Part shown: positions 10,710-18,002 of the stretch, in pieces
How the letters are laid out: each line of letters starts with the position of its first letter
Position numbering within the stretch: the first letter of the stretch is position 1
Assembly (NCBI RefSeq): GCF_023205095.1
Contig: NZ_CP046242.1
Location: 2,469,001 to 2,533,000, forward strand
Direction of reading: 5' to 3'
Length of the DNA: 64,000 nucleotides
Source of the DNA: Bizionia sp. M204
Lineage (GTDB): Bacteria; Bacteroidota; Bacteroidia; Flavobacteriales; Flavobacteriaceae
The notes under the pieces: model-generated
What the model saw: the letters and a program-made list of their open reading frames with translations, nothing else
What the model was told of the DNA's origin: nothing
Database searches by the model: none
Made by a program: the position numbers and the translations under genes

Positions 10710-12956
10710 TTAAAACTTCAAGGTCATTCCCAATAAAAAATTAGTAGTTGCTTGTGGATAAAAACCAGCTCCTTCAATAGTTGATACTTGTGGTGGATTA
10801 GACCATGTGTCATCATAGGTATAATAATATCCGTTAGATGCATACTTAACATTAAATAGGTTGTTAACCAATCCTGAAAACAAAATTGACTTTAAAAATG
10901 GTTTAGTGTTTTCATCTCTTCGGAAAGACATTTCATAATTAACACTAAAATCATTTACAAAATAACTATCTAATTTGGAGGCTGCAGCCTCGGTATTACT
11001 CATAAATTGCTCGCCAACATACTTACTTAAAAGTGTTAACTGTAAATTAGTAATCGGTTGAAATGTTAATGCATTAGAAGCAATCCATTCTGGTGAAAAG
11101 GAAATATCCGTTTTACCAAAATTTACCAAACTACCGTCAAACTCTGTAATCGTTTCCTTGTTTTTATTGGAACTCCATGTTACACTTGGTTGCAAACGCC
11201 ATTTTTCTGCTATTTGAAGGGCTGCTTCCACCTCTAACCCCAATCGGTGACTATCACCGCTATTGGTACGAATTGGGTTTCCAGACTGATCAATATTTCC
11301 TGTTAAAACTAATTGCTCGTTATATAACATGTAATAGGCATTTACATTAAACCGGAACTTTTCATTATTATGTCGCCAACCTAATTCAAAATCATTTAAT
11401 TGTTCTGGTTTTACGTCTGCGTTGTTTTCAAAATCATCACGACTTGGTTCACGATTTGCCCGAGCATATGAGAAATACATACTGTTTTCTGCATTCAAAT
11501 TATAGTTAATTCCCGCTTTAGGATTAAAAAAGGCGTAATTTTCATCGACATTAAAAACATTTCGATCCGAATCAATTCCATTCACCTCATAATCCACTAA
11601 ACGCATTTGTAAATCGGCAAACAAACTGATTTTATCATTTAGTTTAAAAGTACCTTTTCCGAAGAAATTGATATCTGTTTTTAAACCTTTATTATCATAA
11701 TAACGATCTTTATTCATGCTATTACTGGCAAATTGTGCCCAAATAATTTCACCAAAATGCCCACCATCATAATAACTGTATGAGCCTCCAAAAAGCACAT
11801 CTAACTGATTATTTTTATAGTTGGCATTCGCATTTACTACAAAGAAATCATTATCCAACCAACGTCGTCTTACCAAATCCGTTTCCGAAATCGTATCTGT
11901 TACAATTATAATCTCATTTAAACCATAATCGGCAAACTCGGCATCTTCTTTATATTGCTCAAAATAACCTCGTCCAGCCGTATAATTCAAAGCCATATTG
12001 GTGGACCAATTATTATCAATACGCTGATTCCAATGCAGTTGATAATGGTCCTGTTGATAATTATCCACTTCATTTTCGTAAAACTGGGTATTGCCATTTT
12101 CATCAGTATACTCACCAGCTGTATTATAGGTTCGGTCATTGTTCAATTTGTCTTTATCTTCCAAACCATTCCAAGACTGATAGGTTATTTCCTTACCCGA
12201 AAATGTTATGGCTTTTATTAAAGTATTTGTCGATTTATAAGATCCTTGAAGGAAATAAGATTTCAAATTAGAAGTCGCACGATCTATATAACCATCCGAT
12301 TTAATATTTGATAGACGTCCCGCAAATTCTATATGGTCATTCAGCAAGCCTGTGCTAAATTTCAAGGTGTGTTTTCGGGTATTAAAACTACCGAAAGAAT
12401 TGGCAAATTCCCCATAAGCTTCTTGGGAAACGGCGTCTGTTAGCACATTAACACTGGCACCAAAAGCACCAGATCCATTTGTGGATGTTCCTACACCACG
12501 TTGCAATTGTAAACTCTCAACCGATGAGGCGAAATCGTTTAAATTCACCCAAAAGGTTCCTAATGATTCAGCATCATTATACGGGATTCCATTAATAGTT
12601 ACGTTTGTAGATTGCGCATTTATACCACGCACGCGAATGCCTGTATAACCAACGCCTGCTCCTGCATCTGAAGTGGTAACCACAGACGGTAGAAAGTTTA
12701 ATAGAATAGGAATATCCTGCCCCAAATTCCGCTTTTCAATAGCTTCCTTAGAAAGATTGGAATGTGTAATTGGCGAGTCCGCTTTTACACGAACCGAGCG
12801 CACTAAAACTTCATCAAGTGTTTCTAGTTTTGTGGAATCCTGCGGTTTTTCTTGTGAAAAAACACCAAGAGAAGTCGTTAAAAAAATGGAAAGCACACTT
12901 GCTTTTTGAAAATGATGCCAGCGAAAAACTGACGCGTTGTTGAATAAAAATTTCAT
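10710..12956 (-). CDS. TonB-dependent outer-membrane receptor, thiamine-regulated
   Basis: A 748-residue receptor with an N-terminal signal peptide ending near FLTTSLGVFSQ. The plug domain follows (about 50-170) with LDEVLVRSVRV, GYTGIRVRGINAQSTNVTINGIP and LQRGVGTSTNGSGAFGASVNV. The remainder is a 22-strand-type barrel ending in the aromatic FLLGMTLKF. Such receptors import scarce nutrients using TonB energy. A TPP riboswitch lies in its leader (13062-13134), so the substrate is most likely thiamine or a phosphorylated or precursor form. This matches TPP-riboswitch-controlled receptors known in Bacteroidota. There is no carboxypeptidase-like N-terminal extension and no SusD partner. Confidence 0.9.
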   Translation of the reverse strand: MKFLFNNASVFRWHHFQKASVLSIFLTTSLGVFSQEKPQDSTKLETLDEVLVRSVRVKADSPITHSNLSKEAIEKRNLGQDIPILLNFLPSVVTTSDAGAGVGYTGIRVRGINAQSTNVTINGIPYNDAESLGTFWVNLNDFASSVESLQLQRGVGTSTNGSGAFGASVNVLTDAVSQEAYGEFANSFGSFNTRKHTLKFSTGLLNDHIEFAGRLSNIKSDGYIDRATSNLKSYFLQGSYKSTNTLIKAITFSGKEITYQSWNGLEDKDKLNNDRTYNTAGEYTDENGNTQFYENEVDNYQQDHYQLHWNQRIDNNWSTNMALNYTAGRGYFEQYKEDAEFADYGLNEIIIVTDTISETDLVRRRWLDNDFFVVNANANYKNNQLDVLFGGSYSYYDGGHFGEIIWAQFASNSMNKDRYYDNKGLKTDINFFGKGTFKLNDKISLFADLQMRLVDYEVNGIDSDRNVFNVDENYAFFNPKAGINYNLNAENSMYFSYARANREPSRDDFENNADVKPEQLNDFELGWRHNNEKFRFNVNAYYMLYNEQLVLTGNIDQSGNPIRTNSGDSHRLGLEVEAALQIAEKWRLQPSVTWSSNKNKETITEFDGSLVNFGKTDISFSPEWIASNALTFQPITNLQLTLLSKYVGEQFMSNTEAAASKLDSYFVNDFSVNYEMSFRRDENTKPFLKSILFSGLVNNLFNVKYASNGYYYTYDDTWSNPPQVSTIEGAGFYPQATTNFLLGMTLKF

Positions 12957-13061
12957 CCGATAAAAATAAATTTAGCGAATAAAAAGAGGTAATTATTCTG
13001 ATTAAAAATTAGTTTTTTTGTTGCCATGCGCAATCACGCACAACATTACAAAATTGTTGTT

Positions 13062-13134
13062 ATTTTCCTAAACAGCATTACCTGTTCTAGGTTCAATGGG
13101 TATGATCTCAGCCGTTATTGGGCACCCCTTTATG
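13062..13134 (-). ncRNA. TPP riboswitch (THI element)
   Basis: Read on the minus strand the element contains GGGGTGCC, then GGCTGAGATCATACCC, then TTGAACCT, then ACAGGTAATGCTG and TTTAGGAAA, in the order and spacing of the conserved THI-box core. These segments form the pyrimidine- and pyrophosphate-binding helices of the TPP aptamer. It sits between the promoter at 13144-13173 and the receptor ATG at 12956. No clear terminator stem with a T run follows the aptamer, so control may act on translation initiation. The receptor is the only gene downstream of it. Confidence 0.95.
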
Positions 13135-13143
13135 AGAACGCTG

Positions 13144-13173
13144 CAAAGGTAGTTAACAATGTATAATTAGCAA
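13144..13173 (-). promoter_or_regulatory. Promoter for the riboswitch-receptor transcript
   Basis: The minus strand carries a -33 TTG (13171-13173), a 19-base spacer and TACCTTTG (13144-13151), a perfect -7 match at the consensus spacing. The predicted start near 13138 lies just upstream of the TPP aptamer. Confidence 0.7.
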
Positions 13174-13195
13174 GTAATAATGAGAAATTATTAAT

Positions 13196-13600
13196 TTAAA
13201 CTTCCGGTGGTTTCCTATTTGCCTTTTTATCAGCTTGTTTTTTCTTGTTGGAAAGACGTTTGAGTTTCACTGCTCTTGGAACCTTGGTTGGTCTGCGCTT
13301 TTTTGGCACAATCAACCCTTGCTTTATTAACTCTAAAAAGCGTTTAATAACCAAGTCCTTATTTTTATGTTGACTGCGGCTATCGTCACTAGATAGTATT
13401 AATATTCCTTCCGTTGTTAACCGATTATCTAACTTTTTAAGAAGACGGGCTTTTTGGTTTTCTGAAAATACTTGTGAATTTGGCAAATCCCAACTCAATA
13501 CCACTTTAGAGGATGTTTTGTTTACATGCTGACCACCAGCACCCGAACTTCTAATCGCTTTAAATGATAATTCCGTTATAAGAAATGCTGCATCAAACAT
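13196..13600 (-). CDS. arfB: Alternative ribosome-rescue factor ArfB (peptidyl-tRNA hydrolase)
   Basis: ArfB enters the A site of ribosomes stalled on truncated mRNA and hydrolyses the peptidyl-tRNA. The 134-residue protein has the release-factor catalytic motif GGQ at about residues 22-24, in the context SSGAGGQHVNKTSSKV. Its C-terminal tail is strongly basic (VKLKRLSNKKKQADKKANRK) and in ArfB binds the empty mRNA channel. The long codon-recognition domains of RF1/RF2 are missing, as expected. It is the last gene of a tightly packed operon, one base after the DUF4301 stop codon, though its role seems unrelated to its neighbours. Confidence 0.93.
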   Translation of the reverse strand: MFDAAFLITELSFKAIRSSGAGGQHVNKTSSKVVLSWDLPNSQVFSENQKARLLKKLDNRLTTEGILILSSDDSRSQHKNKDLVIKRFLELIKQGLIVPKKRRPTKVPRAVKLKRLSNKKKQADKKANRKPPEV

Positions 13601-13601
13601 A

Positions 13602-15158
13602 TTATTTTAGCTGATGTGGTGACTTTAATAAATCGTTTACTGTTTTAACTGGATTGAAGGTAATGAGTGGCACTTCAACAAAAATTGTATTCCAATTGGC
13701 CATGCTTCCATTCCATAAACCTGGCAACTCCAAAGCTTTTAAATCCTTTCCTAATCGTGTTTTTTTGGTAATAAAAGCGGCTCTATGATCTATAAACTGG
13801 GTGAGATCAAATTTATTTCCTTTGTAATCTTTAACACCACAAACCAAATCGACAGGATTAAAATGTGTGGCATTTTTTAAAATACTTTTTTGATGTTTAT
13901 TCTTTTGATTTATTTGAGCCGACTCTACAATTTGAAGTGAAATAGTTCCACTTTCATCTTTAACCCAAAAGGGCCCACCTCCAGGTTCACCTTCATTTTT
14001 AACCATACCACAAACACGAATTGGTCGGTTTAATTTACTCTGAAGATATTCTATTTGAAACTTTTCTGCATATTTTTCAAATTCAGTAGAAATTTTTACC
14101 TGCATTTTTTTTGTTAAAAACCGTGCGATTTCAATGATTGTTTCGTGGGACAATTCGCCTTTATCAATTAATTTTAAATACTGAAATGCCTGCTGTTGAA
14201 TTTCCATCAGAATCCCAGCCAATATCTTTTTATTCTTGGCTACTTCATTTTTATACTTATAAACAACCACATTATCAATGTTTTTAATAAAGATAATATC
14301 GGCATTCAAATCGTTTAGATTTTCAATTAACGCACCATGTCCTGATGGACGAAATAACAAATCGCCGTTCTCTAATCTGAAAGGCTCATCTTTAGGTGTA
14401 ACAGCAATTGTATCGGTTGATTCTTTTTGATACGAGAATGAAATATCGAATTGAGAATTGGTTTTACGTTCTACTTTATCTTCTATTCTTGAAAACTCAT
14501 TACTAAATTTATCCTTATGACTTTCTGAAATGGTAAAATGCAATTTTGCTTGCTTATTGCAACACGCATACAATGCAGATTCAAATAAATGTTCCTCAAA
14601 AGCTGTAGAAATAATTTGGTTTTTATATTCGTGAAACGGTAATAATCCTTTTGGTGAATTGCCATAATTTAAACCGTCCTCGTCTAACATAGCTTTTACA
14701 AATAATTGCGAGCGGTAACTAACATCTAAATCGGCGTAGTTTGGATAGGTTTTATTTAACAACTCCAAGACTTCAAAATAGAATGGAAATTTTTCTAAAC
14801 CAACAAAGAAAATATGTAAACTTTTATCATCGCGCGTATTCAAATACGAATTAATAGTTTGTTCAGCTGGATCATATTCTTCCAAAAACTGAAACAGAAA
14901 TTTAAACATTCGAGTTGCTGCTCCTGATGCGGGAACAAATTTTACAATATCAAATTGGTCTTTATTTTCATCAAAAAATACCACAAGGTTTTCAACTTCC
15001 GAATTATTTAGGCGTAAAATACCATCTCCAACTGTTGCGGCTGCCACCAAATTTGAAAATGGCAAACCGGAAACGAAGGTTTCAAGCTGTTTGTTGACAC
15101 CTTCCACAGTTAAACCCTTTGACTCTATTTGTTTTATGTCCTTTTCAGAAAAAGTCAT
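13602..15158 (-). CDS. DUF4301 family protein, nucleotidyltransferase-like
   Basis: A 518-residue cytoplasmic protein of the DUF4301 family, with no known function. Two stretches resemble sugar-nucleotide pyrophosphorylases: VPASGAATRMFKF at 75-87, like the LAGGxGTRL nucleotide-binding loop, and FRPSGHGALIENL near 269-281 followed by FIKNIDN at 290-296, like the GHGxL and NxDN substrate segments. The C-terminal third has ICxCGMVKNEGEPGGGPFWVKD-like Gly-rich sequence. The start codon overlaps the upstream kinase stop codon (ATGA), so translation is coupled. I infer a GT-A-fold nucleotidyltransferase-like enzyme. The thiamine-linked operon may point to its pathway, but this is unproven. Confidence 0.75.
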   Translation of the reverse strand: MTFSEKDIKQIESKGLTVEGVNKQLETFVSGLPFSNLVAAATVGDGILRLNNSEVENLVVFFDENKDQFDIVKFVPASGAATRMFKFLFQFLEEYDPAEQTINSYLNTRDDKSLHIFFVGLEKFPFYFEVLELLNKTYPNYADLDVSYRSQLFVKAMLDEDGLNYGNSPKGLLPFHEYKNQIISTAFEEHLFESALYACCNKQAKLHFTISESHKDKFSNEFSRIEDKVERKTNSQFDISFSYQKESTDTIAVTPKDEPFRLENGDLLFRPSGHGALIENLNDLNADIIFIKNIDNVVVYKYKNEVAKNKKILAGILMEIQQQAFQYLKLIDKGELSHETIIEIARFLTKKMQVKISTEFEKYAEKFQIEYLQSKLNRPIRVCGMVKNEGEPGGGPFWVKDESGTISLQIVESAQINQKNKHQKSILKNATHFNPVDLVCGVKDYKGNKFDLTQFIDHRAAFITKKTRLGKDLKALELPGLWNGSMANWNTIFVEVPLITFNPVKTVNDLLKSPHQLK

Positions 15159-15721
15159 ATCTTACTTTTTAATAATTCATTAATATGCTTTACGGCAACT
15201 TCAAAACGATTTGTTAGATTTCCACTTAGTAAAATATAGGGCTTTTGGTGAATTTCTAACGCCTTTTGAAACGCTTGAAACATCGTTTCTCTTTCATGCG
15301 GTTTATCGCGAATGCCATCGGGCTCCCATGGCAGATCAATATTAGTTAAAAAATAAAGATTATAGTAATTTTCTGTGGCAAATTTATTTAAGCGCTCTGA
15401 AGTAAAGTCCTGATAGTAAGATTCACTATATACTTTTGTTTCTAACAAGTCGGTATCACAAATTAGTAATTTATCTGCTTGCTTAGTCAATTTGTTTTCT
15501 AAAGCCATTTGGCCTTCCGCAATGGGCAATACATCATCTTGGGTTAATACCTCATGTAATTTTGCTTTATTTTCAGCATAAATCCTAGAAAATTCTGGAA
15601 CCCAAAGTGTATTAAAATGAGTCGCCAATTTTTTAGCAAGAATGGTTTTTCCTGTTGACTCAGGACCAAACAGGACAATTTTTATGCAATGACTCTCGTC
15701 TTGTTTAAGTGTTTCTTCCAT
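15155..15721 (-). CDS. NadR-like P-loop kinase, candidate thiamine kinase
   Basis: A 188-residue protein matching only the C-terminal ribosylnicotinamide-kinase domain of NadR. It has a P-loop GPESTGKT at 19-26, then WVPEFSRIYAE (about 40-50), a Walker-B-like LLICDTDLLET and DLPWEPDGIRD near 130-140. The DNA-binding and adenylyltransferase domains of NadR are absent. PnuC-type permeases rely on a kinase to trap the substrate. The pnuC-like gene overlaps this one by 40 bases, so the two probably act together. Because the next gene encodes a YkoF-like thiamine-binding protein, thiamine is a better guess than nicotinamide riboside, but the substrate is untested. Confidence 0.75.
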   Translation of the reverse strand: MEETLKQDESHCIKIVLFGPESTGKTILAKKLATHFNTLWVPEFSRIYAENKAKLHEVLTQDDVLPIAEGQMALENKLTKQADKLLICDTDLLETKVYSESYYQDFTSERLNKFATENYYNLYFLTNIDLPWEPDGIRDKPHERETMFQAFQKALEIHQKPYILLSGNLTNRFEVAVKHINELLKSKI

Positions 15722-16314
15722 GCTAAATAACCATAAATTGCTAATACTGTAAAACCTAAATACTGTAAACTTGTAAAGGTAAATCCTTTGTAAAAATATA
15801 AGGGGACTGAAATAAGATCACCTACAATCCAGAAAATCCAATTTTCAACTTTTCGTTTTGCCATGAGATACATTCCGGCAAAAAATATGGCAGTTGTAAG
15901 AATATCAACATACGACACCCAACTACTCCATTTATTAAAAATTTGATAAATAACAGCAACACAAATTACCGCTGCAACGGCAATTCCAATTGAAGTCTGT
16001 TTATCCCTTTTATTCCATGATGTAATTGGTGTTTCATGCGTATCATCTATTTTACGTGTCCAAATATACCAACCATAAATACTCATTATAAAATAGTAGG
16101 CGTTAATAATCATATCGCCTAATAGTGCCCATTTAAACAATAAATATACAAAGATACTTGTGCTAATAATACCGGTTGGAAACACAAAAATATGGTTCTG
16201 TTTAGAATACCAAACGGATAGAAACCCAAAAACAATCGCAATAATCTCAAGTACAATATCTAGAGTATCATAATCGCTGTACTGACCAAACAGGTAATCA
16301 AAAATGAGGCTCAT
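15682..16314 (-). CDS. pnuT: PnuC-family vitamin permease, probably thiamine (PnuT)
   Basis: A 210-residue polytopic membrane protein with about seven helices and the PnuC-family pattern: YYFIMSIYGWYIWTRK in the middle, then NWIFWIVGDLISVPLYFYKG and YLGFTVLAIYGYLAW. PnuC proteins carry nicotinamide riboside, whereas PnuT members in Bacteroidota carry thiamine by facilitated diffusion. Linkage to a YkoF-like binding protein (17-base overlap) and proximity to a TPP-riboswitch receptor favour thiamine. The NadR-like kinase downstream keeps nicotinamide riboside as the main alternative. The large overlap with the kinase gene indicates translational coupling. Confidence 0.8.
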   Translation of the reverse strand: MSLIFDYLFGQYSDYDTLDIVLEIIAIVFGFLSVWYSKQNHIFVFPTGIISTSIFVYLLFKWALLGDMIINAYYFIMSIYGWYIWTRKIDDTHETPITSWNKRDKQTSIGIAVAAVICVAVIYQIFNKWSSWVSYVDILTTAIFFAGMYLMAKRKVENWIFWIVGDLISVPLYFYKGFTFTSLQYLGFTVLAIYGYLAWKKHLNKTRVIA

Positions 16315-16558
16315 AATCTTGTCTATCTGATTTGACTATTTTCATGTGTAGCAAACCGCGTTCAATTAATTCAAAAGCTTCTTTTATTTCAACGGTTAAA
16401 AGTTTCATAACCGCATCATAATCGCCATAAACCTGCGTGCTTAATGGGTTTTCAAGGACTTTTAAATGAGATGCTCGTAATTTTTTTATAAAATGAATGA
16501 TGGCTGGTTCATAGTCATCATGCAACGGTGTTAAGGTTAATTCTACGGATATTTTCAT
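16298..16558 (-). CDS. YkoF/MTH1187-like thiamine-binding protein
   Basis: An 86-residue protein, MKISVELTLTPLHDDYEPAIIHFIKKL-type at its start, with a single ferredoxin-like alpha-beta unit of the thiamine/hydroxymethylpyrimidine-binding YkoF family (MTH1187/YkoF superfamily). Characterised relatives bind thiamine or HMP. Single-domain versions like this one dimerise or tetramerise. No signal peptide is seen, so it is cytoplasmic. It is the first gene of the operon leading to pnuT, the kinase, DUF4301 and arfB, and is the strongest local sign that the operon handles thiamine. Confidence 0.75.
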   Translation of the reverse strand: MKISVELTLTPLHDDYEPAIIHFIKKLRASHLKVLENPLSTQVYGDYDAVMKLLTVEIKEAFELIERGLLHMKIVKSDRQDYEPHF

Positions 16559-16641: not shown

Positions 16642-17370
16642 TTAACAATCTTGAAGTTCTTCAAAAAAAGACTCATCATCTTCAAAAGCCGTTCCTATAA
16701 CTACTAAATCGGCTCCAGCTTGGTAGGCTTGTTTTAATTGTTTTAAATTTCGAATTCCGCCGCCCACAATTAAGGGAATGCTAATATTGGTTTTTACTTT
16801 TTCAATTATCTTCTTGGATACCGGTTGCAATGCACCACTCCCAGCTTCCAAATATATAAGTTTCATTCCAAGTAATTCGCCAGCTGTGGCTGTATCTGCT
16901 ATTAATTGGATGTTATTATTTTGTAATGGTGCTGTATTGGTTACACGTTGTACGGCTGTTTGTTTGCCATTTTCAATTAAGATATAACCGGTTGAAATAA
17001 TTTCTAAATTTGAATTTTTCAATTTCGAAATGGCTTGAACATGCTTACCAATTAAATAGTCTGGATTTCTACCTGAAATCAGTGATAAAAATAAGAGTGC
17101 ATCGGCTTGATTTGTTATTTGTCCTACATCACCAGGGAATAATAAAAGAGGTAATTGGGTGTGTTTTTTAATTTCTATTACCAAAGCTTCTGTTAATTGC
17201 GCTGCAACCACACTTCCACCAACAAAAATATGTGTGGCTCGAGACGCATTTACCTTTTCTATAAATTTAGCAACGGTATTTAAATCCATTTTATCAGGAT
17301 CGATTAAAACGGCTAATAATTTTTCACCTTTAGATGTAGCTTGTAAAATGTGATTATAAATAGTCTTCAT
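16642..17370 (-). CDS. Geranylgeranylglyceryl phosphate synthase family protein
   Basis: A 242-residue TIM-barrel enzyme of the PcrB/GGGPS family, which joins a polyprenyl diphosphate to glycerol 1-phosphate in an ether bond. Motifs include VLIDPDK (about 22-28), THIFVGGS (46-53), IYLEAGSG (170-177) and LIVGGGIR near 200, forming the phosphate- and G1P-binding sites. The enzyme makes the core ether lipid in archaea; Bacteroidota carry their own branch, with GGPP-using activity shown for some members. It overlaps the PPTase gene by one base, so expression is coupled. The cellular product here is unknown. Confidence 0.9.
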   Translation of the reverse strand: MKTIYNHILQATSKGEKLLAVLIDPDKMDLNTVAKFIEKVNASRATHIFVGGSVVAAQLTEALVIEIKKHTQLPLLLFPGDVGQITNQADALLFLSLISGRNPDYLIGKHVQAISKLKNSNLEIISTGYILIENGKQTAVQRVTNTAPLQNNNIQLIADTATAGELLGMKLIYLEAGSGALQPVSKKIIEKVKTNISIPLIVGGGIRNLKQLKQAYQAGADLVVIGTAFEDDESFFEELQDC

Positions 17371-18002
17371 TACTTAATTGGTAAGGCAAAAGCACAGGTA
17401 AAACCTTCAAATTCTAAAAAAGTAGTATCGAAACTATGTTTACTGTTATCATAATCTATCCAAGCGCGTGTTTCGGAATCTAATATTTCAAAAGGAATTA
17501 CCAGTGTATGCTGTAAAAAACTCAACCCAGGAGTAGCAAACAATTTATAAAGGGATTCTTTAATACACCAAATAACGGTTAGTTTCCGAATATAATCCTC
17601 GGCATCTTTTTGCAAATATTGACTTTCATAATCCATAAATTTATGCGCAATAACACCAATTTTGTCTCGTTGTTTTTCAATATCAATGCCTACTAAATGA
17701 TCACTAACCACCACTCCAGAAAATGTAAAGGAATGCGTAATAGAAATATATTTCCCGTCCTTTAAATGCGGCTTACCATTTTCATCGTAATACAAATCGG
17801 TATCGGTATAACCAAATTCGGCAAGCAAATGTCTAACACTTAAAAAACCACGTTGGTGCAGCTCACTTTTCATACTTAAAACGCGGCTTAAACTTTCGGG
17901 TTTTAAGGTAATTGGCTGAATTAAATCGTCATAAGATTCTTCTATCTTCCAGATTTTAACAGTAGTTTGTGAGTTGGGAATAAGGGTTTTATAAAGCGGC
18001 AT
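17370..18002 (-). CDS. 4'-phosphopantetheinyl transferase superfamily protein
   Basis: A 210-residue Sfp/AcpT-type enzyme that moves phosphopantetheine from CoA to a carrier protein serine. The metal and catalytic motifs are visible: VGIDIEKQRDK near residues 100-110 (Asp and Glu ligands) and WCIKESLYKLFATPG near 145-159 (W-x-x-KE-x-x-YK). An upstream ITHSFTF matches the conserved SxTHS region. The length fits the shorter group of the Sfp-type family. No polyketide or peptide synthetase gene is in the window, so fatty-acid acyl carrier protein or a distant pathway is the likely target. Confidence 0.9.
   Translation of the reverse strand: MPLYKTLIPNSQTTVKIWKIEESYDDLIQPITLKPESLSRVLSMKSELHQRGFLSVRHLLAEFGYTDTDLYYDENGKPHLKDGKYISITHSFTFSGVVVSDHLVGIDIEKQRDKIGVIAHKFMDYESQYLQKDAEDYIRKLTVIWCIKESLYKLFATPGLSFLQHTLVIPFEILDSETRAWIDYDNSKHSFDTTFLEFEGFTCAFALPIK

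Follow-up and report, generated by a model that had tools for sequence, protein, structure and literature searches.

How does a bacterium that keeps ThiL, the enzyme that makes thiamine pyrophosphate (TPP) from thiamine monophosphate (TMP), obtain TMP when no known enzyme appears to supply it? The question is raised by a locus of Bizionia sp. M204, a member of the Flavobacteriaceae, that lies in a window of 64,000 nucleotides (the whole stretch of DNA that was analysed; contig NZ_CP046242.1, positions 2,469,001 to 2,533,000 of assembly GCF_023205095.1). On its minus strand, overlapping genes for a YkoF-like protein, a PnuC-family permease and a single-domain NadR-like P-loop kinase precede a TPP riboswitch and a gene for a TonB-dependent receptor. 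We consider it highly probable that this locus serves to take up vitamin B1 and trap it in the cell, with the kinase making TMP and ThiL making TPP. Judged by its sequence relationships and distribution, the kinase very probably fills the role of thiamine kinase, for which Flavobacteria otherwise appear to have no enzyme.

The metabolic gap and the distribution of the kinase

A first-pass annotation of the window, made from the DNA letters alone, had proposed that the kinase phosphorylates thiamine and not nicotinamide riboside, and that the genes form an uptake-and-trap route. Comparative genomics supports this proposal, with thiamine as the inferred substrate. The Bizionia sp. M204 genome (99.88% complete) encodes NadA and one ThiL, and a search of it gave no match to thiamine pyrophosphokinase (TPK; PF04263, 0 candidates), ThiC, ThiE/TenI or ThiK, so that TPK and the de novo genes that the annotation had wanted checked are not in evidence. 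With these genes not found and ThiL kept, no source of TMP other than the kinase is evident in this genome, and TPP would have to come from imported thiamine or thiamine phosphates alone. The retention of ThiL implies a need for a thiamine kinase that supplies TMP.

We extended the search to a family sample of 120 genomes, made up of Bizionia sp. M204, one congener and 118 representatives of other genera. The kinase is present in 115 of them, the PnuC family in 118 and NadA in 48. ThiE/TenI exceeds its cut-off in 37 genomes (60 at E <= 0.001), and ThiK (TIGR02721) in none of the 120, with sub-threshold matches in 13. ThiC is lacking in 95 genomes (25 have it), 118 keep ThiL over cut-off and only eight have TPK; most of the sampled genomes have no known enzyme that makes ThiL's substrate. 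The kinase occurs in all 93 genomes that have neither TPK nor ThiC, and in every one of the 80 among them in which ThiE/TenI, too, stays below cut-off; 78 of these 80 have ThiL over cut-off (Fisher p = 0.0004 for kinase versus need in this sample, with kinship not corrected).

Every permease-bearing genome of the family carries the kinase or TPK (118/118), and the two permease-less genomes, G020 and G079, carry neither. These two, which have ThiC only, are among five genomes without the kinase; the others have TPK and ThiC (G002, G100) or TPK (G016). In G016 the order is riboswitch (60.5 bits), receptor, permease, TPK, and the TPK gene overlaps the permease gene by about 11 bases: TPK occupies the kinase's place. 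In G100, the permease, DUF4301 and ArfB genes are consecutive, with no kinase match between permease and DUF4301 at E <= 1, and TPK is encoded elsewhere in the genome.

A wider sample comprised 296 genomes of the phylum, each at least 90% complete, in which the kinase was sought by profile. Matches at E 1.2e-13 or better, counted as strong, number 75, and there are 79 at 1e-3; among the 75 are further NadR-type proteins, sorted only at the loci fetched. TPK is present in 148 genomes and coincides with the kinase in 15, of which 14 belong to a single genus (g120) and the fifteenth owes its match to a bifunctional NadR (L224). Another three genomes of g120 carry TPK without any match to the kinase. 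In the sister family f2, all six sampled genomes have TPK and none has the kinase. Outside g120, 88 genomes have neither enzyme.

If the reading is right, it fills the TMP gap in the Flavobacteriaceae, a family reported to be dominant in some coastal waters (PMC8552899), and explains how many of its members convert imported vitamin B1 to its working form. It would also give a function to proteins that matched only general models here and improve genome-based prediction of vitamin B1 dependence, with TPK-bearing relatives as natural controls.

Anatomy and conservation of the locus

The features of the locus, in their minus-strand order, are as follows.

17370-18002, minus strand: PPTase
16642-17370, minus strand: GGGPS
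16298-16558, minus strand: YkoF/MTH1187-like, putatively thiamine-binding protein, 86 aa (Pfam Thiamine_BP, AlphaFold fold, conserved adjacency)
15682-16314, minus strand: PnuC-family permease, probably PnuT-like (thiamine), 210 aa (PF04973, 177 bits; neighbourhood; tree)
15155-15721, minus strand: NadR-RNK-like single-domain P-loop kinase, candidate thiamine kinase, 188 aa (AAA_28, 133 bits; TPK-complementary distribution)
13602-15158, minus strand: DUF4301 protein, 518 aa (PF14134, 732 bits)
13196-13600, minus strand: ArfB-type peptidyl-tRNA hydrolase (NF006718, 132.7 bits, cut-off 100)
13173-13144, minus strand: putative Bacteroidota-type promoter, TTG-N19-TAnnTTTG, just 5' of the riboswitch (read by eye in the sequence)
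13047-13139, minus strand: TPP riboswitch aptamer with most of P3 missing (RF00059, 38.9 bits, model positions 1-105)
10710-12956, minus strand: TonB-dependent outer-membrane receptor, candidate OMthi, 748 aa (PF00593 and PF07715 over cut-off)

The open reading frames of the first-pass annotation and its overlaps of 17 bases (YkoF-like/PnuC), 40 bases (PnuC/kinase) and 4 bases (kinase/DUF4301) were reproduced exactly. The genes that it named were all recovered; it had passed over the two genes that separate the kinase from the riboswitch, DUF4301 and ArfB. The riboswitch and promoter that it placed 5' of the receptor were likewise seen, the riboswitch being weak but credible. We take TTG-N19-TAnnTTTG to be a promoter motif of Bacteroidota; a scan of the leader for sigma-70 promoters and terminators gave no matches above chance.

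The riboswitch aligns end to end with RF00059 (E = 3e-5 in 4.4 kb) and scores below the Rfam gathering score of 54.3 bits, so that it goes unreported at that threshold. Both cores, CUGAGA and ACCC..UGAACCU, are intact. It is the single RF00059 match at E <= 0.001 in its genome (a search with stricter filters), and it leads into the receptor gene, not the permease-kinase operon; RF00059 scans of the window and genome revealed no riboswitch 5' of that operon. Among the family genomes, 111/120 have an RF00059 match at E <= 0.001 and 38 exceed the gathering score. By eye, riboswitches close to the kinase and receptor score approximately 31-55 bits and those next to ThiC approximately 65-80 bits, which perhaps reflects two TPP riboswitch subtypes within one family.

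Using the window's proteins as tblastn queries, we called the neighbours of the kinase at its 115 family loci. The permease gene lies directly upstream in 111 loci and DUF4301 directly downstream in 98; a YkoF-like gene is adjacent upstream in 83, a same-strand receptor lies downstream in 101, and a same-strand riboswitch lies within 15 kb downstream in 86. Fourteen loci have neither receptor nor riboswitch, seven of them within 3.4 kb of a contig end. At 32 loci no YkoF-like gene was detected next to the kinase, so its product may help without being essential. In six small genomes (G004, G052, G065, G067, G081, G095) the riboswitch begins 12-52 bases past the kinase match, and neither DUF4301 nor ArfB was found in the kinase locus; the lasting unit is thus permease, kinase, riboswitch and receptor, and ArfB is probably a bystander. 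At one locus (L078, in G017), the usual permease is absent beside the kinase, and another PnuC-family gene (25% identity) stands behind the riboswitch and receptor.

A second set consisted of the best 80 of at least 575 confirmed relatives, mostly from Flavobacteriaceae such as Bizionia, Gelidibacter and Winogradskyella, with one labelled Chlorobiota; it shares some genomes with the 120-genome sample and is therefore not independent of it. The permease is present at all 80 of these loci, the YkoF-like gene at 61, the receptor at 71 and the riboswitch core pattern at 61. Among the matches listed, the nearest relative of the kinase is from Bizionia (77% identity). The neighbourhood survey that the first-pass annotation had called for thus found homologues adjoining the permease, and in most cases a YkoF-like gene as well as a receptor with its TPP riboswitch, the survey for NAD genes falling short of the full set of homologues.

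Outside the family we fetched the loci of 36 matches from 34 genomes (two gave two), plus one g120 kinase locus. The permease adjoins 21 of the 29 single-domain kinases without the NadR motif; at L212 and L221, kinase, riboswitch and receptor occur with the permease not nearby. Within the fetched stretches, Infernal detected a same-strand TPP riboswitch at 7 of 18 single-domain loci (L212, L214, L221, L223, L227, L229, L241), at the g120 locus L244 (34.1 bits) and at none of four NadR-type loci, a contrast too small to count alone; the other outside loci were scanned only by core pattern, which misses some riboswitches. In family f4, ThiL lies on the same strand 4-8 kb downstream of the kinase in six of the nine kinase-bearing genomes. 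We rejected ThiL as an operon partner of the kinase: in L220, the sole annotated case, minus-strand genes lie between them.

From this arrangement a mechanism can be proposed. The TPP-controlled receptor would bring thiamine across the outer membrane, and the PnuT-like permease would equilibrate it across the inner membrane; PnuT reportedly works by facilitated diffusion. The NadR-family kinase would then convert thiamine to TMP, which could no longer exit the cell, and ThiL, encoded elsewhere, would make TPP, which in turn would close the riboswitch of the receptor. Cytoplasmic thiamine is probably bound by the YkoF-like protein and passed on to the kinase.

Identity and substrate of the kinase

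In the window's kinase, AAA_28 is the only Pfam family over cut-off; PF04263 gives no match. Its AlphaFold model (pLDDT 89.7) has NadR as its best match in the PDB (8x7f, TM-score 0.84 on the query, E 9.5e-10), followed by thymidylate kinases, and the modelled fold is that of a P-loop kinase resembling the ribosylnicotinamide kinase (RNK) domain. The first-pass annotation had described the protein as having lost NadR domains. The adenylyltransferase domain is indeed absent, whether by loss or as the original state; single-domain kinases form a moderately supported group of their own beside the NadR-type proteins of the phylum. In a tree of 73 rows (33 from the family including the window's, 37 others and three PDB chains), all NadR-type rows fall outside that group (support 88/68). 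Two single-domain proteins with the NadR motif and no permease (L235, L236) are placed with NadR. NadR-type proteins beside PnuC occur in the same phylum, assigned by Pfam (L224, L237, L239) or by length and tree (L238, L240); of the four longer relatives scanned, L224 and L239 score above the cut-off for CTP_transf_like, L237 barely does so and L238 gave no match.

Residue patterns separate the same groups. We compared 144 single-domain rows with 10 NadR-like rows, omitting L244 and scoring L235 and L236 as NadR-like. The NadR motif D-T-x-x-x-T-T (residues 89-95) is absent from the window's kinase, and its T94-T95 pair occurs in 8/10 NadR-like rows and in 0/144 single-domain rows, although the motif is no proof of substrate. 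Taken singly, T94 is present in 8/10 and T95 in 10/10 NadR-like rows; T95 alone occurs in 90/115 family rows, and T94 alone in 10/29 other single-domain rows. Conversely, E75 is found in 141/144 single-domain versus 2/10 NadR-like rows, and K96 in 121/144 versus 0/10.

These comparisons bear on the possibility that the kinase is a nicotinamide riboside kinase, with a true PnuC as its permease and the riboswitch nearby by coincidence. Such a role would suit the NadR proteins that are its nearest solved structures and the call by NCBIfam of the permease as PnuC over cut-off, and part of the permease tree points the same way: in families f3, f5 and f9, nine permeases linked to the kinase are placed near NadR-linked PnuC. 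The window's permease itself belongs to a 48-row clade (100/100) without NadR-linked PnuC, and the sole TPK-linked permease in the tree lies outside that clade; with its rows split in this manner, we set the permease tree aside as proof of substrate. The kinase follows TPK, ThiC and ThiL and not NadA, occurring in 45/48 NadA-positive and 70/72 NadA-negative family genomes, and Bizionia sp. M204 is itself among those with NadA. Furthermore, two genomes of the phylum each carry a NadR-type protein in addition to a single-domain kinase: G263 has L219 and the bifunctional NadR L239 beside PnuC, and G168 has L211 and L240 (by length and tree). Given the NadA distribution, the NadR-PnuC pairs in the same genomes, the kinase tree and the missing T94-T95 pair, we judge this alternative unlikely.

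Less likely still is that the kinase is a one-step thiamine pyrophosphokinase that converts thiamine directly to TPP, an idea that draws on the TPK found at the corresponding place beside the permease in G016. The nearest folds of the kinase are those of NadR and thymidylate kinases, and the distribution of ThiL argues for TMP as the product. In the phylum sample, 223/296 genomes have ThiL over cut-off, including all 75 with the kinase versus 79 of the 148 with TPK; of the 73 genomes with ThiL below cut-off, none has a strong kinase match and 69 have TPK. This is the pattern predicted for a kinase that makes TMP. It is very improbable that the enzyme acts instead on a thiamine precursor or nucleoside-like import (hydroxymethylpyrimidine, hydroxyethylthiazole or a deoxynucleoside), for all that thymidylate and deoxynucleoside kinases are among its fold neighbours: with ThiE not found in the genome, hydroxymethylpyrimidine and thiazole could not be joined, and TMP would be without a source though ThiL is kept.

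Beyond the permease placements, several observations weigh against a thiamine kinase within an uptake-and-trap unit. The counts are not corrected for shared descent. Kinase and TPK occur together in five family genomes (G003, G051, G061, G071, G117). Of these, G051 has a kinase frame interrupted near residue 153, possibly by an assembly error, and G061 retains only a 17-residue match to the YkoF-like gene, and no riboswitch turned up close by. All 14 kinase-bearing g120 genomes also have TPK, their kinase being fused to DUF4301. No same-strand riboswitch was found within 15 kb at 29/115 family loci (some truncated by contig edges), or by Infernal at 11/18 single-domain loci outside the family (L208, L209, L211, L213, L217, L220, L222, L225, L226, L228, L232). 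Finally, thiamine may be phosphorylated by another, unrecognised protein.

On balance we think that the thiamine kinase proposed here represents a new family, derived from or sister to the NadR RNK domain and marked by E75 and K-[VI]-[WY] at 96-98. It would replace TPK in several of the phylum's families, those that bear TPK (such as the sister family f2, and f16 and f23 of the sample) excepted, and provide, with ThiL, a two-step route to TPP, the overlapping binder, permease and kinase genes pointing to a hand-over of thiamine on entry.

Relation to known systems and to neighbouring genes

The thiamine kinase of E. coli, ThiK (YcfN), shares with the Bizionia kinase the presumed conversion of thiamine to TMP followed by ThiL; we take it to belong to a different protein superfamily. 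Thiamine-binding proteins of the MTH1187/YkoF type share their fold and Pfam family with the window's YkoF-like protein, with a weak sequence match. In YkoEDC, YkoF accompanies an ABC/ECF system, whereas here the gene overlaps that of a PnuC-family permease. Closest in its logic is OMthi-pnuT-tnr3 of Bacteroides thetaiotaomicron, which takes up thiamine and in which TPK (tnr3) is the partner of pnuT; its TPP-controlled TonB receptor, PnuT permease, adjoining phosphorylating enzyme and trapping of the substrate (PMC5613172) have their counterparts in the present locus, where the permease is PnuT-like and the control and trapping are those proposed above. It differs in that the enzyme there is TPK, while here an unrelated NadR-like kinase is joined by a YkoF-like gene and no riboswitch was found 5' of the permease-kinase operon. 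With the RNK domain of NadR (PDB 1lw7, 8x7f, 6gye, 9x6f; PMC7221760), the kinase shares its fold, Walker A, E-x-x-R, D-T, W-x-x-D-x-x-R and a neighbouring PnuC-family permease. It differs in lacking an adenylyltransferase domain, in residues 75, 94-96 and 100, and in a distribution that tracks thiamine genes and not nicotinamide adenine dinucleotide (NAD) genes. The accessible literature searched, consisting of titles, the beginnings of abstracts and some passages, names no NadR-like thiamine kinase; an earlier prediction in subscription journals is possible. The reaction and the uptake logic are already known; the assignment of the kinase family, and TPK at the same place in a relative, appear new within searchable papers.

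The permease belongs to the PnuC family by its match to PF04973 (NMN_transporter). Permeases at the same place and with the same overlap fall into identity classes of approximately 43-51% and 55-72% to the window's, on separate tree branches, as would result from in situ replacement of the permease. PnuC-family genes also lie directly behind TPP riboswitches in four family genomes: G007 (C5:47714-48434), G011 (C15:1777-2492), G022 (C18:31811-32489) and G053 (C8:25725-26442). In G007, G011 and G053 these are second copies; G022, where no permease adjoins the kinase, yielded no other copy. Genes in this position lend further support to thiamine transport by the PnuC family.

The YkoF-like protein matches Pfam Thiamine_BP (PF01910) marginally (26.5 bits, cut-off 24.9), and the NCBIfam model of MTH1187 (TIGR00106) scores 15.3 bits against a cut-off of 54.7. 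Of 14 aligned members, 12 match Thiamine_BP at E <= 0.01, four match Ykof and eight match TIGR00106 weakly. The top 14 chains matched by its structural model (pLDDT 86.3) are those of SP2199, MJ1052, TM0486, a DUF77 protein, YBL001c and MTH1187, some of which we presume to be kin of the MTH1187 type. Pfam and the predicted fold together place it in the Thiamine_BP/MTH1187 family.

DUF4301 gave no match by sequence to the PDB. In all 14 kinase-bearing g120 genomes (read in L172) and in G314 it follows the kinase within a single fused frame, and by the length of the open frame it does so in G003 and G006. As it was not found at the six small-genome loci that keep the kinase, it may be thiamine-linked or have a separate role. 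A different fusion occurs in a genome outside the family, where a kinase of the single-domain type shares one frame with an aldose 1-epimerase domain (PF01263; L241:7077-8570).

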